Position numbers and translations under genes: made by a program | The notes under the pieces: generated by a model | The model's input: the letters and a program-made list of their open reading frames with translations, nothing else | What the model was told of the DNA's origin: nothing | Database searches by the model: none | Assembly (NCBI RefSeq): GCF_026914265.1 | Contig: NC_069135.1 | Location: forward strand, 23,367,639-23,431,638 | Direction of reading: 5' to 3' | DNA: 64,000 nucleotides | Origin: Mya arenaria | Taxonomy: Eukaryota > Mollusca > Bivalvia > Myida > Myidae | Part shown: positions 16,791 to 63,237 of the stretch, one piece after another | Position numbering within the stretch: the stretch's first letter is position 1 | Layout of the letters: every line of letters begins with the position of its first letter

Positions 16791-19467
16791 CTAAGGCGTG
16801 ATCATCTTGGTGAACTCTGGAAAAAATTAAAAGAACATGTGTATGCGAAATAAGGGCTATTTCAAACGTTCAGCAAATAATTAGTGCGTAAGTAACATAG
16901 AAGGGAGTATGAATATCTATAGATTAATTATGTTTCATTTACATATTGACACTTCTGCAATGCCATATCAGTTATGGACATGACGAGGAATTGAGTCCAA
17001 GGCCCATGTTCACAAACAATCTCGTGCCTGTGATAAGAATTAAAGCTACACTCTCACAGATTGACCGTTTTTTGGCATTTTTTTGTCTCGGAATGAACCA
17101 ATCTTGGCGTAAATATCTGGAAACCAGTGATATAAGACTGGTGACAACATATCAGATCACAATGTTTAATATTTACGTTCGGAAATTGAAGTTGTGTGGC
17201 TAATTAGTTAGGGGGGTTACGACATAAAATATCAATTTCCGAACTTAAATATATAAAACTACGATCTAATCCTTTGTCAGCAGTCTTATATCACTGGTTT
17301 TCAGACATTTACGCAAAAAATGTGTCATTTTAAGACAGAAAGAAAATGTCAAAACGGTCCACCTGTGAGATTGTAGCTTTAAGGCTCAAAACTGAAAAAT
17401 ATCCTTCTTACAGAATGTTTATTTATACATCACTATTGTTAAGGGGGCACAATACACAGTGTACCACGTGATAAATTACGTCATATATGCTACGTCGGAA
17501 GGCAATATTTTTCTTAAAATAAAGACTTAAATTAAAGATAACTTTTCGCTTACTTCACCATTTTAAATGAAACAAAGGCCAGTCAATGCAGCTTAAATAG
17601 CCCCACCTTTGATTATAACCGGAGTTTGATAAGGTGATTAGTTTCATTAAACACTTCGACAAACCTGTTTCCCAAACAATGTTTTGACAGTGCTCCGTCA
17701 GACGGCCGTATCGTGAAAAGGTTTGTCGAAGTGTTATAAGAAACTAAACTCTCAATCAAAATTTGGTAAAAGACCAAAGGCGGGGCTCCGTAAGCTGCAT
17801 AGACTGCGCTATGTTTCATTTAAAATGTTAAAGAAAATGAAAAGTTATCATTGTTTTAAGTCTTCAATCGAAGCAAAATATTGCCTTCCGACGTAGCATT
17901 TATGACGCAATTTATCACGTGCTATACACACACTGAATACAGGTTGTTGTAAAAAAAATAATTAAAGGATACTTATGTTTAACTCATTTGACTTAAATGA
18001 TCAACACTAAAGAAAACATACTGGTTGTGAATAGATAAAAAATATTAGCAATATTTTTGCGCATTTCAAACTGGTAAATTTGTGGCCACGAAGCTTTTAA
18101 TTAAAAAAGACATTTATTTATAAAGGCTAATCTTTTTTTATATTTACGCACATATTTTGATTATAAAAGTCAAATGAGTGAATGCATTAATATAAATAAT
18201 TGCATCGACCGATTATTGTTGTGACCCTTTAATTGTCACTGATAAAAAGCACTCTTTTCTGAGTCGCTAAAACTGAGTCAAACTTGAAAATGTTCGTAAA
18301 CATTAAACCTTAATCATAGCAGCTAAATGTAGAGTATGTGTAATTACATAGAATGGATTATTTATTAAAATTCTCTATTACTATGAAACAAACCTTCATA
18401 GTTTATATTTCCATCGCCGTTGATATCAGCGGCCGCCATCAGTTCATCAAGTTCCTGCTCATTAACCTTCGTACCAAGGGTTGCTATAGCGTCCCGCAGT
18501 TCCGGCTTGGAAATACTTCCGTTTCCGTCCGAGTCGAACACTCGGAACGCGTCTACGATTTCCTCTTCCATGTCAACTTTCTGTAACTTCCGGCTGATAA
18601 GCTTCACAAATTCATCGAAATCAACTTCGCCATTTCCTATGCATAATAATTATGATCGTATATTTTGACAGTAAATATTGGTATTTTGGTGATATCAAAA
18701 GGCATCAATTGCATAATTTAATTTGGAAACTGCGCCAAACATTGATCACAATGTATGCTGGTTTACGGTATACTACGGTGGTAAAAAACACGTTCGTTTT
18801 AAGGAAACTTAGAAAGTAAGACAACTGAGATTGTACCGTCGGCGTCCACGATTTTCACCATCCTTCTTAGTTCTTCTTGGCTGGGGTTTTGTCCGAGAGA
18901 CCTCATCACAGTGCCCAGCTCTTTGGTCGTGATGGTCCCGTCTCCATCGGAGTCAAACAGCCGGAATATCTCGCGAAACTCTATAAACAATTTAAAGATA
19001 TGATTGACAACATCTGTAATAGATAAAGGGTATCATTTATTCAATTTACCAGAAAGAAAGAAAAAAGCCCTTATCGATTTAAATTACCTAGACAGTATCA
19101 GTGGTCACTTGTTTTGGTGTATGTTTAAAGAACGATATTTAATAGATATTCCATTTTAGTATTTATATGAAAAAACTACATGAAAAACATACATAAACCA
19201 GTACAGTAGTCAAAAGTTTAAACATAAACCCCGTTTAATGGCACATGGTCAACGCCAATGACATACAACACATAAACAAACAATCACAAACCAGAAACAT
19301 GGAACAACAGCACAAAACTCTACAAACAACACACTACACGTATAATAAATATAACAACTTAGTATGTACATTGTTTGCGCCGTGTACAGATTTCTTGAAA
19401 GGGGCTTTAAATGGGTTTAATCAATACCTTTCACCAACGTTGCATTTCCAACATTAACGCTTGCCAT
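16791..19467 (-). CDS. Calmodulin-like protein, four EF-hands, four exons
   Basis: Exons on the minus strand: 19428-19467, 18837-18980, 18394-18636 and 16791-16816. All introns are GT-AG and every junction falls in phase 1. The joined frame is 150 residues; calmodulin has 149. Calcium loops are complete: residues 23-34 [12 protein letters not shown], 59-70 [12 protein letters not shown], 96-107 [12 protein letters not shown] and 132-143 [12 protein letters not shown]. The sentence [13 protein letters not shown] is almost calmodulin itself. The N-terminus ([13 protein letters not shown]) lacks calmodulin's LTEEQIA helix start, and the C-terminus ends FTKMITP. The 26-base last exon follows a strong acceptor (aattttttccag) and matches calmodulin's short final exon. 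It probably acts as a cytosolic calcium sensor. The first exon is the least certain piece. The last intron (1577 bp) is mostly foldback and MITE sequence. Confidence 0.88.
17044..17378. mobile_element. Foldback element flanked by TTAA (family E)
   Basis: The left arm starts agctacactctcacagattg and the right arm is its reverse complement ending tgtagct, with arms matching imperfectly for over 150 bases. TTAA lies at both ends (17040-17043 and 17379-17382). It lies inside the last intron of the calmodulin-like gene. An 85-codon frame in it is incidental. Confidence 0.8.
17440..17945. mobile_element. Long foldback element (family F)
   Basis: Two arms of about 230 bases pair across a spacer near 17670-17710. 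The left arm holds cacgtgataaattacgtcat and gctacgtcggaaggcaata, and the right arm (17860-17935) holds their reverse complements. There is no transposase; the 68-codon minus-strand frame follows the palindrome. In the pre-mRNA of the calmodulin-like gene it would form a long hairpin. Confidence 0.8.
17950..18236. mobile_element. MITE-like element, family A, copy 2
   Basis: Shares layout and internal blocks with 1771-2107 (tttaactcatttgactt, aatattagcaatatttttgc, aattgcatcgaccgatt). Ends are weakly inverted. The copy is old and diverged. Confidence 0.45.
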
Positions 19468-56559: not shown

Positions 56560-56845
56560 TAATCAGCATTACTCAGTCGAAATAAGCAAACAGACTGATA
56601 TACTCCCTTAAATGCGGCAGTTTTTGCAAATCATTATAGTTTTTACCCTTATCAATCTTAATAAGCAATTGCGTCATTCTGTTATATCAACCGACCGATT
56701 TACCCTCTTAAATGCAGCAGTTTTTGCAAATCATTATAGTTTATACCCTTCTTAAGCGAAATAAGCAATTACGGCATTCTATTATATCAAACCCTCTCTT
56801 AAAAGCAGCAGGTTTAGCAAATCGTTATAGTTTATGCCCTGTGGA
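56560..56845. repeat. ~100-bp tandem repeat, about 2.8 units
   Basis: aatgcagcagtttttgcaaa, tcattatagtttataccctt and aataagcaattgcgtcattc recur at spacings of about 100 and 91 bases. The array ends about 500 bases before a TATA box. Confidence 0.8.
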
Positions 56846-57363: not shown

Positions 57364-57426
57364 CCTTGCGGCCGATTTTCCGTTTAGTTTGCTTTACGAT
57401 ACAGTGTTGATCGTGACCTGAGAATT

Positions 57427-57456
57427 ATGAGAAGGATATCGGTTGGGCATATATAA
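57427..57456 (+). other. Short upstream ORF (9 codons plus stop)
   Basis: ATG to TAA encoding MRRISVGHI between the predicted transcription start and the 57-codon ORF. It might modulate translation; no more can be said. Confidence 0.25.
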
Positions 57457-57522
57457 ATCAGCTGATTAATCTAAACTTTAACTAAAGCTTTATTTTGTGA
57501 ATATTTTAACAACACTAATTAA

Positions 57523-57696
57523 ATGGTTTACAGTCGTTTTCGCGACCTTTTTTGGGGAAAATTCCTGGACGGTGATCACGCCGAAACATTTAATGAATTC
57601 AAGAACTCCGAGAAATTTGTTGAAAATAAAGTGCTAGAGACTATTGAAAGTGTGATTTTAGATATTTCTGAAGATCTTGAAGATAAATTCTCATAA
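57523..57696 (+). CDS. 57-residue ORF, first cistron of a possible dicistronic gene
   Basis: The ATG has A at -3 and G at +4. The protein runs MVYSRFRDLFWGKFLDGDHA, then ETFNEFKNSEKFVENKVLET and IESVILDISEDLEDKFS. The first half is basic and aromatic, the second acidic with a heptad-like hydrophobic pattern that could form a helix. The TAA at 57694-57696 shares its last A with the next ATG (TAATG), an arrangement known to favour termination-reinitiation. No family is recognised. It could be only an upstream ORF that throttles the next cistron, but its length and protein-like composition make a product plausible. No repeat overlaps it. Confidence 0.4.
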   Translation: MVYSRFRDLFWGKFLDGDHAETFNEFKNSEKFVENKVLETIESVILDISEDLEDKFS

Positions 57697-59323
57697 TGGA
57701 GAACGCGATCATTCTACTAAGTGAAGCTTCAGTGAAGGTAAGTAGTAAATTATAGTGAATTATGTGTACAGCTCGTCTGCGTAACTCGCAACTTCTTCGA
57801 TTAACTTTTAATAGACATGTTTAGTTTTCGGTAAAGAACCTTACGATTCCATTCTCCAATGAGTGAAGTTTCGATGACTAATAATGGAAATTTACCAATT
57901 TTCTTCGTCTATTGAATCGTTTATTGATCGGTCACTACGGCTTGGTTGTCAGCTGATTTTTGTAAAAAAAAAATGGCGTCGCTGACCTAGTTTACGCCTA
58001 AATATTAATCACCCTTGTCCAACGATACATAGGCTGTACAAATAACCTGCAGTTATGTGTATTTGCCCACACTTAAAATGTCATTTATATCGGAGATAAA
58101 TATACCAAGTTAAGACAGGTAAACGGTATGGTGCGGACTTTAATATTTGCCCCTCAGGTGTTCGACTTGGTTCGTATGTGTGAGGTCTCAAAATGATTAT
58201 AAGGACACCATACGGAATATGTGGCTTACTTACATGATATTATACTCAATTCAAATTACGACTGTATATTATACTTTTGAAAACTAAGCTTTTATCAACT
58301 TTGTTTATAATTCAATCATAAAACACTATGGTTAACAATCGTCTTTTATAGGAGTGATGCTCACGGTTAAAATCGACTGAACACTAGCGGGTTAAGACTT
58401 GGCATTCCCACATACACACCTTTTAAAAAATTTATGACAATATCAGACAACCAATATTAAAGAGATGAATTTGCAATATTTCTGACAAAAAAACTGGAAC
58501 ACGTCTAGCCAAAATAACTCATTTAAACCCGTTATTGTTCGTATTCCCTGGGAATGAGGATTACTTTCTTTGTTGCGCTCCTAACGCCCGCCCAAACAAT
58601 TTTAAATCTGCCCTGCTAATACCTTTAAAGTTAAAACCAACTTTAATTATATTGTTATTTCGATAAGTAGCATCCAATAGATGATCATGTTTTTATACCG
58701 CACCAGCAATTGAGTCGAATATACCTGTGATTTGGCCGGTCACGTGTAATTTATTAACCTAGATTTTTTCCCCATTACAGCCGCAGGTGCTTCCGTTTCT
58801 GAGAATATGCGAGTCGCACGCGACCGAGGCCAAAAAGGTTGGTATATACTATTAGTTTGCTTGCGTATACCTCAACATTTAATAATAATAAGGAATGATT
58901 AAATAAAATCTACCATTTTAGCGCTTTTTACTTTTAATGTTGAAATGGCGTATACTACTATTAACACAATTTTCAAATGCGTAGCCTTATCAAATTGATC
59001 TTCAATTAAGAATTGATTATGCTGCATTATATTAATATTAAATTATACTATATTAATATTAGATTATACTGCATTCCTCTGCACACTGTGAAGACGTATA
59101 AAGTTTTTGCAGATGTTCTAATATAAATAAACATTAAGACCACAAATATTTTATTAAGTCGAAAATTTGTGAAAACTTGTTTACTCTCTTTCAGACGGCC
59201 TCGCGTCAGCCGTACTTGACTGGCGGTGTTGCGCTAGGTGGCGCCGCTTTTGCGGCCACGGTCGCCTCTAGAGGGCGTTGTCAACAACTAGTGCGGCTTG
59301 TCAAGCAAGCCAAAAACATGTAG
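57696..59323 (+). CDS. 75-residue glycine-rich, probably membrane-inserting protein, three exons
   Basis: Exons 57696-57737, 58781-58837 and 59195-59323 have good GT-AG signals (AAG|gtaagt, ttacag|CC, AAG|gttggt, tttcag|AC), and all junctions are in phase 0. The product starts MENAIILLSEASVK, continues PQVLPFLRICESHATEAKK, then TASRQPYLTGGVALGGAAFA, ATVASRGRCQQ, and ends LVRLVKQAKNM before TAG. The stretch L-T-G-G-V-A-L-G-G-A-A-F-A-A-T-V-A has GxxxG-like spacing and suits a short membrane helix, followed by a basic tail. The coding part is clearly more GC-rich than the introns. The exons are too short to show up as long ORFs. No family is recognised. The start ATG overlaps the preceding stop. 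Confidence 0.55.
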
Positions 59324-60782
59324 AATGAGGAGGAGAGGAAACAAAATCGATCAATAGCTACTTCTTGAATATGACGTCATTATATGGGAAAAGACCCCCT
59401 ATTGAGCAGCGAATTACCAGCTGTAACCTTTTTTGTATTATAGCTTTTATTGGCACATATATGAACAATTGCCACAACAGCGAATCACCCGTGTACAGCT
59501 GATGTCGTAGACAACGACAAGACTTGACTCATCACTTGTGATGTGCTAATGACGTCATATCAACGTGGGTTTCGAACTAAATGACTTGATCGTCATGTCA
59601 TTCATCGCCTTGAGGCCAAGCTAAGATGGACCCTTTAGAAGTAGCTTTTACAACATCTCGACGAACTTCATCGCAGTTTCAAGCTATCCAGAGCTCGTGT
59701 TTTACAACGTGTATTACGTTAACGTGATGCACATGACGTAATGTTATCGTAAACACGTGTCTTAAGATCGAGAAACCTTATAAAATGGCTTCAGACTGAT
59801 GCTGCCGGCTGGAAAGACTTGTATAATATACTGTGATTGTTTGTGTGTGTGTTTTTTTAATCTCTTTTATACGTTGCTAGATTTAACATCACTATTTAAA
59901 TACTATAGTAGTCAGATGTCAATTTTAATGTGATATCTGACCATATTTGTAGGGTTTATATAGCTACAGTTTAGAACATGTTCCTTACAGATCGGGCTTA
60001 TCAACGATCGTTCAATGAATTAAACATAAGCTCGAAACATCATGCTCGAAATATAAACTGAATCAATTTTAATTTTATATTTTCTAAACAATGAAAAAAA
60101 ACACCACCAACAACAAATGATCAGTGAATTAAAACAGCGGTATTTTATGAAATGCCGCACTTTTGTATATATACAACTAACTCGAATTTACATGAAATGA
60201 TTGTACTTTTTATAATGTATAAGTTTTTATTCAATCACTTTTTGTCTTAAATAAATATAGAACACCATACAATATTGCACGGTGGTAAACCAGTGATCGC
60301 AACCATTCTCTGAATGATTCGTTCAAAGTCGAGGTACATGTGAAACATTTCCATCATTGTATATAATTTAATGCCGCAGTTTAAGAATGAAATAACAACA
60401 TTTACTACCGGCAAACATAAAAAATAAGAACAGAAACTCTTTGTATTCATGTATTTCTTGTCTGATTGATTTTGGTTTTATGTATATAACAGTGTTTTGC
60501 ATTTGCGAAAATGAAATAAAATGTTTTAAACATTCGTTCCTCGATTGCCGATAAATGATTTGTTGCCATGTATATAAATGATAGATGTCCATACACAACA
60601 ATAATAGGCATATATTTTCTCAAGAAAATGGAATCTTATCATCGTCGGATACTGTATGAATGGAGAGTAATGAAATAGGGGGCATGAAAAAGAAAGTAAG
60701 TGTATTCAAAAGAAATATACAACACAAAAAATATTTGATATAGGCCAATATGACCCGCGATCAAAGTAACGTAATGCAATAT
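59324..60782. other. 3' flank of the mini-gene and intergenic DNA
   Basis: Begins with the probable 3' untranslated region. AATAAA occurs near 60250. Two overlapping minus-strand frames of 67 and 77 codons look random. Nothing else is supported. Confidence 0.35.
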
Positions 60783-60910: not shown

Positions 60911-61326
60911 ATGGCTTGATCGAAAGAAACATTGACATCGTTTTAGGTCCCATACCAAATGGATATTAAGCGACAGGTCTCCTTTTCAACACCTACCTAG
61001 CGGGCAGAAAACCCTCAAATAGAATGAATATTCATCAAACGTATGTTTGATTTTGATTAATAATTTTAAGCTGCAAACATGCATTTCTTCCGACTATTTA
61101 ATATTCAAAGGCGGATACCGTTTCGCGGACAGAACATAAAACTTTGGAATATAATTGGTTTGACCTATCGTCATATTTCCGGAATAACACATGATGTTCG
61201 TATCATATGAATTTGCGGATGAAAACACTTGAAACTGTAATTTACTTTCAACCATCACTTGTACTTTGCATGGACTAGGCATGATTTCATTGTGTACCGA
61301 GTACTTCACACGCACTGCGTTGTGTA
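60911..61326. other. Spacer between tandem arrays
   Basis: Unique sequence; no feature supported. Confidence 0.3.
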
Positions 61327-61712
61327 CGCTGTAATGGGAAATGAAAGCGCCATGTATGCGCGCACAGTAATGTACGCTGTAATGGGTAATGAACGAGCCA
61401 TGTATGCGCGCACAGTAATGCACGCTGTAATGGGAAATGAAAGCGCCATGTATGCGCGCACAGTAATGTACGCTGCAATGGGTAATGAACGAGCCATGTA
61501 TGCGCGCATAGTAATGAACGCTGTAATGGGTAATGAACGAGCCATGTATGCGCGCACAGTAATGTACGCTGTAATGGGTAATGAAAGCGCCATATATGCG
61601 CGCACAGTAATGCACGCTGTAATGGGTAATGAAAGCGTCATATATGCGCGCACAGCTATGCACGCTGTAATGGGTAATGAAAGCGCCATGTATGCGCGCA
61701 CAGCAATGCACG
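61327..61712. repeat. 48-bp tandem repeat, about 8 units, open in several frames
   Basis: Unit starts acgctgtaatgggaaatgaa and ends gcgcgcacagtaatgt. The first units alternate between gaaagcgcc and gaacgagcc, a 96-bp period. Because 48 is a multiple of three and the unit lacks stops in several frames, long ORFs appear on both strands (153, 207 and 131 codons) with a 16-residue period. This openness is a by-product of the repeat. I do not call a gene. Confidence 0.92.
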
Positions 61713-61719
61713 CTCACTG

Positions 61720-63237
61720 ATTAATGTACGCACACTGAGCGCACACCGAATAATGTACGGGCACTAGGTAATGTACGCACACCGAGTAATGTACGCGCAC
61801 TGAACGGACACTAGGTAATGTACGCACACCGAGTAATGTACGCGCACTGTACGGACACAAGGTTAAGTACGCACACCGAGTAATGTACGCGCACTGAACG
61901 GACACTTACTCATGTACGCCCACGGAGTAATGAACGCACACTGTACGGACACTAGGTAATGTACGCACACCGAGTAATGTACGCGCACTGAACGGACACT
62001 AGGTTATGAACGCACACCGAGTAATGTACGCGCACTGTACGGACACTTACTCATGTACGCACACCGAGTTATGTACACGCACTGTACGGACACTTACTCA
62101 TGTACGCACACCGAGTTATGTACGCACATTGTACGGACACTAGGTAATGCACGCACACCGAGCTATGTAAGCGCACTGTACGGACACTTACTCATGTACG
62201 CACACTGGGTAATGTACACGCACTGTACGGACACTTACACATGTACGCACACCGAGTTATGTACGCACACTGTACGGACACTTACTCATGTACGCACACC
62301 GAGTTATGTACGCACATTGTACGGACACTAGGTAATGCACGCACACCGAACTATGTAAGCGCACTGTGAGAACACATGTACGCACACCGAGTAATGTACG
62401 CGCACTTTTCGGACATACTCATGTACGCACACCGAGTTATGTACGCGCACTGTACGGACACTAGGTAATGCACGCACACCGAGCTATGTAAGCGCACTGT
62501 GAGAACACATGTACGCACACCGAGTAATGTACGCGCACTTTTCGGACATACTCATGTACGCACACCGAGCTATGTACGAGCATTGTATGCGCGCTGAGTA
62601 ATGTACGCACACTGTACACATTTTAATTAATGTACTCGCATACGAAGTAAAATACGCGCACTGATTAATGTAGGCACATTGAGTAAAGGTACGCACACTG
62701 TACTCGCACTGATAAATGCACGCACACTGAGTGATGGTGCGTGCACTATAGGCACACTGGGTAATGTACCGCGCACTGAGTAATGTTCGCACTCTGAATA
62801 ATGTTCACACACCGAGTAATGTACCCGCACTGTACACACACTGAATAATGATCGCGCAAATTACATAATATACACACACTGATTAATGTATGCATACCGC
62901 GTCATGTGCGCGCAGTGTTTACAAAATGAGTAAAATACGCACACTGAGTAATGTTCGCACATTGTACGTGTACTGGGCAATGTTTGTGCATTGAGTATTG
63001 TACGCGCATTGAGTTTTGTACGCGCACTGAGTTTTGTACGCGCACTAAATGTCGTACGCGCACTGAGTATTGTACGCGCACTGACTATTTATGCACATTG
63101 TACGTGTACTGGGTAATGTATGTGCATTGAGTTTGTACGCACAGTGAGTAGTTTTCGCGCATTGTACGTGCACTAAGAATTTTACGCTCAATAGTAATGT
63201 ACACACACTGTATGCGCACAGAGTAATTTACGCGTAC
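61720..63237. repeat. Degenerate ~18-bp GTACGC-rich array
   Basis: About 1.5 kb of variants on acgcgcactgagtaatgt, partly arranged in compound periods of about 47 bases (acgcacaccgagtaatgt, acgcgcactgaacggacact, aggtaatgt). It shares the gcgcgcac-agtaatgtacgc core with the 48-bp array, so the two probably have one origin. Density falls towards 63237. Confidence 0.85.

Follow-up and report, generated by a model that had tools for sequence, protein, structure and literature searches.

Layout of the ORF1-ORF2 locus

The locus described here lies on the forward strand of the window, the 64,000-nucleotide stretch of Mya arenaria DNA that was analysed, which is part of contig C14 of a 1.216-Gb genome comprising 18 contigs. 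Two short open reading frames, designated here as ORF1 and ORF2, were found to share a single base at a TAATG stop-start junction (Table 1). ORF1 and the first exon of ORF2 are contiguous in the genome, and the three exons of ORF2 join in phase 0 to give 75 codons followed by TAG. The ATG of ORF1 is directly preceded by an in-frame TAA. ORF1 is separated from the end of an upstream ORF (uORF) by a 66 nt gap, while 239 nt lie between the end of the uORF and the ORF2 AUG.

An earlier note on this DNA had outlined a TATA promoter, a 57-codon ORF and a one-base TAATG overlap with a second, three-exon ORF of 75 codons, and each of these elements was confirmed at the positions given in Table 1. The same note had assigned an A at -3 and a G at +4 to both start codons, which is correct for ORF2 and for the +4 position of ORF1, while the -3 position of ORF1 is a T. 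The uORF and the second TATA-like run are absent from that description.

Table 1. Features of the ORF1-ORF2 locus, with positions numbered within the window
Feature	Position	Strand	Basis and remarks
TATA-box-like motif TATATAAA	57356..57363	+	Motif match; transcription start inferred ~30 nt downstream (near 57386)
10 nt perfect complement of 57688-57697	57424..57433	+	Pairing would join the uORF start to the TAATG junction
uORF, 9 codons	57427..57456	+	Sequence scan; A at -3, A at +4
Second TATA-like motif TATATAAA	57450..57457	+	Sequence; candidate promoter, could start transcription past the uORF
ORF1, 57 codons + TAA, intronless	57523..57696	+	Start context TAAATGG (T at -3, G at +4)
TAATG stop-start overlap	57694..57698	+	Sequence; one base common to both ORFs
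ORF2 exon 1, 14 codons	57696..57737	+	Start ATAATGG (A at -3, G at +4; optimal); donor AAG/GTAAGT
ORF2 exon 2, 19 codons	58781..58837	+	GC 58%; donor AAG/GTTGGT; skipping keeps the frame
ORF2 exon 3, 42 codons + TAG	59195..59323	+	GC 60%; hydrophobic stretch YLTGGVALGGAAFAATVAS, basic tail
AATAAA, candidate poly(A) signal	60250..60255	+	Motif; another at 60515

Positions 56589-56840, upstream of the promoter, contain a pair of direct repeats of 100 bp that are 85% alike, along with an incomplete third copy that has 45 bp in common. Downstream of the locus, the regions 61094-61720 and 61978-62804 are repetitive and open in several frames on both strands, with a minisatellite-like appearance. 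On the reverse strand, a 68-codon ORF (18365-18571) ranked third in the window for codon score on a per-codon basis, and a splice chain of 157 codons was also obtained from its ATG. When ten frames of the window were compared with Pfam, copine, integrase zinc-binding and GRF zinc-finger domains were identified above the curated cut-offs, while the matches to 7tm_1 (E=2e-6) and Exo_endo_phos stayed below theirs. In the genome at large, ten protein-kinase matches with open frames of 920-924 codons were distributed over seven contigs, their equal or near-equal scores suggesting a kinase gene that is mobile or was amplified recently.

Coding signal and predicted splicing

Codon composition was scored using a model trained on 14 non-redundant kinase and AAA fragments from the same genome (1778 codons), 38 of the 52 fetched fragments having been dropped for in-frame stops or redundancy. 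ORF1 was shown to exhibit a log-odds score of +7.5 bits, which was reached by none of 2000 open single-base shuffles (mean -8.9, sd 4.2), these being the shuffles that stayed open among 216728 in which base composition, but not dinucleotides, was kept. Per codon, ORF1 ranked eighth among the 116 ATG-initiated ORFs of at least 50 codons in the window, and at least two of the seven placed above it come from a repeat-rich copine exon read in alternative frames. The other five frames of the ORF1 region all scored negative, and the GC content of ORF1 (34%) is at background level. The codon composition of ORF1 is above chance and the frame looks coding; that its peptide is both made and selected is considered an evenly balanced proposition.

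For ORF2, an unguided search for splice chains starting at its ATG returned as the best chain exactly the three exons of the earlier note. The spliced frame scored +12.4 bits over 75 codons, the third-highest value among 316 strong-context ATGs of the window, 20 of which gave any chain and 296 none under the splice thresholds applied; a further nine of the 325 strong-context ATGs, located near the strand ends, were skipped. One of the two starts outranking ORF2 represents an alternative copine frame. The two donors score 9/9 and 7/9, the latter being counted against the model, and the acceptors contain 12/15 and 13/15 pyrimidines. Exons 2 and 3 also exceed in GC content the parts of the window around them (35-37%). 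Both the splice chain and the codon composition of ORF2 exceed chance, and ORF2 probably represents a real gene.

The TAATG overlap by itself is not unusual. Of the 86 ORFs in the window that reach 57 codons, two terminate in TAATG or TGATG, compared with a mean of 2.7 out of 52.5 in 30 Markov-1 sequences, which is a chance-level frequency, and ORFs of this length are commoner in the window than modelled (86 versus 52.5 expected).

Predicted products and their relatives

The ORF1 protein (57 aa) carries a net charge of -7, and its best 19-residue segment displays a hydropathy of 0.49, so that no membrane span is evident. AlphaFold2 predictions made without an alignment consisted of four helices, with a mean pLDDT of 85.4 and a pTM of 0.58 for the best model and 62-71 for the other four models. 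The ORF2 protein (75 aa) has a net charge of +6 and a basic tail, and encompasses one moderately hydrophobic 19-residue segment (mean hydropathy 1.29); exon 3 modelled alone was predicted to form one helix (mean pLDDT 75.4, pTM 0.31).

The two proteins did not align to each other at E values up to 100, and neither matched Pfam at E values up to 10. A sequence search of the PDB yielded no convincing relative for either of them, and a Foldseek search using the ORF1 model returned no match. Searches of the 1.216-Gb genome, by DNA and by each protein, revealed no further copy among the best candidates scored, and the locus is thus not a repeat. A SART1-like transposon ORF pair was rejected on the same grounds, as the locus occupies a single place by DNA and by protein among those candidates.

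The best non-self genome match of ORF1 was an open frame of 377 aa at ~42.87 Mb on contig C9; this frame itself has no Pfam match. The shared segment reads FRDLFWGKF in ORF1 and FRDLFYGKF in the 377-aa frame, and further matches extend to the end of ORF1 (pattern FRDLF[WY]GKF...EFK...E.VES). Within this pair, which was chosen from 1.2 Gb, the raw score of 77 was reached by none of 5000 shuffles (maximum 48), but genome-wide the match is not significant (E=0.75, 1.8 and 1.65). The nine-residue motif pattern, which was chosen after the match had been seen, occurs twice in the genome and not at all in a reversed control. A third match to ORF1, with a like score (E=0.82), reads RLRELFFGKY followed by a stop and looks like noncoding DNA; the presence of a similar motif in this stop-broken sequence suggests chance as the origin of the resemblance, and the putative kinship of ORF1 to the 377-aa frame is regarded as a weak lead.

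Decoding of the putative two-protein message

In the preferred reading, two small ORFs with no sequence relationship reside on a single mRNA and are translated chiefly through leaky scanning, both products being predicted, and this is given about an even chance of being correct; should both proteins be made, leaky scanning is likely to be the main route. Some scanning ribosomes would start at the weak-context AUG of ORF1 and produce the acidic helical peptide, while the others, either by passing over this start or by resuming beyond the uORF, would reach the optimal AUG of ORF2 and yield a basic protein that probably spans the membrane once. On this view, the TAATG overlap would reflect tight packing more than a reinitiation device. 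A weak ORF1 start followed by a strong ORF2 start makes up a leaky-scanning pattern, to which the single further ATG inside ORF1, weak and out-of-frame (versus 3.9 expected in 171 nt at the window rate), may add. The uORF AUG upstream of ORF1 would take some ribosomes and is counted against the model, and translation of ORF1, which leaves two exon junctions downstream, could expose the message to nonsense-mediated decay. Transcription, splicing and leaky scanning of this message, as well as the manufacture and function of both proteins, are what we infer from the sequence. The two-protein gene proposed by the earlier note appears plausible, both ORFs being coding-like by codon score and ORF2 being supported by its splice chain.

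A comparable arrangement is described in the available text on Drosophila sloth1 and sloth2 (human SMIM4 and C12orf73/Brawnin), smORFs of 79 and 61 aa that are located on one mRNA with a 5 nt spacer (PMC9681215). There, the first start is poor and the second optimal, impairing the first raised and strengthening it lowered expression of the downstream ORF, and reporters support leaky scanning (PMC9681215). The locus resembles this pair in its two smORFs, weak-then-optimal starts and almost complete lack of a spacer; it differs in that ORF1 has no evident transmembrane segment, the two proteins did not align to each other and the ORFs overlap by one base. No homology of ORF1 or ORF2 to SMIM4 or Brawnin was detected using Pfam at E values up to 10.

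SMIM4 and Brawnin themselves were identified elsewhere on the same contig, above the family cut-offs (C14:16720356, E=2.3e-17, and C14:16721951, E=4.1e-14, respectively), 1.46 kb apart on one strand and in the sloth1-sloth2 order (region C14:16718500-16724500). Were a splice to run from directly after the SMIM4 TAG to an acceptor ahead of Brawnin, the spacer would be 7 nt, similar to the 5 nt of the Drosophila pair; given a donor of 5/9 and an acceptor of 8/15, this join is a guess, whereas the tandem order is not. In this pair a weak start is not followed by a strong one: SMIM4 carries A at -3 and C at +4, Brawnin G at -3 and C at +4. The tandem is a possible precedent for a two-smORF gene in the same genome, its shared message being a guess, and the window gene would be another of this kind, unrelated in sequence to SMIM4 and Brawnin.

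Adjacent or overlapping ORFs are also documented in other eukaryotes. The available text of PMC11291117 describes green algal bicistrons that are decoded by leaky scanning, some of them with overlapping stop and start codons. Ciona operons without an intercistronic region, as presented in the available text of PMC7986045, contain adjacent ORFs with no spacer, as does the locus. Those operons are reported to be resolved by spliced-leader trans-splicing; with regard to such trans-splicing, the nearest AG before the ORF2 ATG is at 57681, inside ORF1.

The main rival to leaky scanning, itself rather unlikely, is a regulatory uORF pair of the ATF4/GCN4 type, in which ORF2 would be the sole protein that matters and the ORF1 peptide would be irrelevant. 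The 9-codon uORF would permit reinitiation, ORF1 would act as a long inhibitory uORF ending just past the point where the ORF2 AUG begins, and under stress a slower reacquisition of eIF2 would allow ribosomes to bypass ORF1 and reach ORF2. ATF4 carries a 3-codon uORF1 and a longer uORF2 overlapping the main ORF, according to the available text of PMC5972666, and the order and sizes at the locus fit this scheme (a 9-codon uORF, the 66 nt gap and a 57-codon ORF1 overlapping the ORF2 AUG). The short-then-long overlapping arrangement is present if the upstream TATA is used, whereas the second TATA would yield uORF-free messages. Unlike in ATF4 and GCN4, the main ORF would encode a small, probable membrane protein, the overlap amounts to 1 nt and ORF1 looks coding; the coding-like codon choice of ORF1 speaks against a purely regulatory role without being decisive. 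The helical single-sequence model of ORF1, fairly confident in one of five runs, and its possible 377-aa relative, though not significant genome-wide, point in the same direction.

Coupled termination-reinitiation at UAAUG, whereby a ribosome would end ORF1 and restart at the overlapping AUG, had been put forward by the earlier note, yet it is not the best reading of the locus and is considered improbable. The available text of PMC5972666 reports the use of UAAUG by influenza B segment 7 and the SART1 retrotransposon and of UGAUG by mouse embryonic GAD mRNA, with which the locus has the overlapping stop-start pentanucleotide in common. Moreover, the leader with ORF1 and exon 1 (57386-57737) folds more stably than shuffles (z=-2.64; 1/100 shuffles as stable). 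The 10-nt complement between the uORF start and the junction, which was noticed post hoc, was reached in length by 20/2000 Markov leaders, and by 36/1000 when a 305-nt leader was used. In contrast to the three cited cases, the locus has no UGGGA and start contexts of a leaky type, and no second genome copy was found among the best candidates scored. The UGGGA core of the TURBS element (TGGGA) is absent from ORF1, in which one TGGG occurs at 57553, ~140 nt upstream of the stop-start; the absence of the core is not decisive, since some coupled viruses also lack it (PMC5972666, available text). The weak ORF1 start and optimal ORF2 start suit leaky scanning, the overlap occurs at chance frequency, a uORF precedes ORF1, and reinitiation after long ORFs is presumably very rare (PMC5972666, available text).

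It is improbable that ORF1 is a chance open frame without a regulatory role in the leader of a one-protein gene (ORF2), or that the ORF2 model is wrong as well: the abundance of 57-codon ORFs in the window, the chance-level overlap and the lack of a credible homologue among the searches made for either ORF would fit, but the splice chain of ORF2 and the codon scores obtained for each of the two ORFs argue against it.

Returning to leaky scanning, a broader version of this reading, which is unlikely as a whole, holds that the locus may be a lineage-specific bivalve gene encoding two interacting partners on one mRNA: the acidic helical peptide (net -7), which would be soluble, and the basic product (net +6), which would cross the membrane once. 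The proportion of the two would depend on start-codon leakage, with a possible switch provided by the helix between the uORF start and the junction or by a choice between the two TATA motifs. In this version, a short domain not described before would be common to ORF1 and a larger protein of the species. A limited open-licence literature search (titles and abstracts) revealed no comparable two-protein gene in a mollusc. The two-smORF layout itself is known but uncommon, and the locus is a probable further case. If the preferred reading is true, the locus would bring to light two small proteins that had gone unrecognised, encoded in a mollusc by one natural message, and would offer a compact test, in an animal gene, of leaky scanning versus reinitiation at a one-base overlap.
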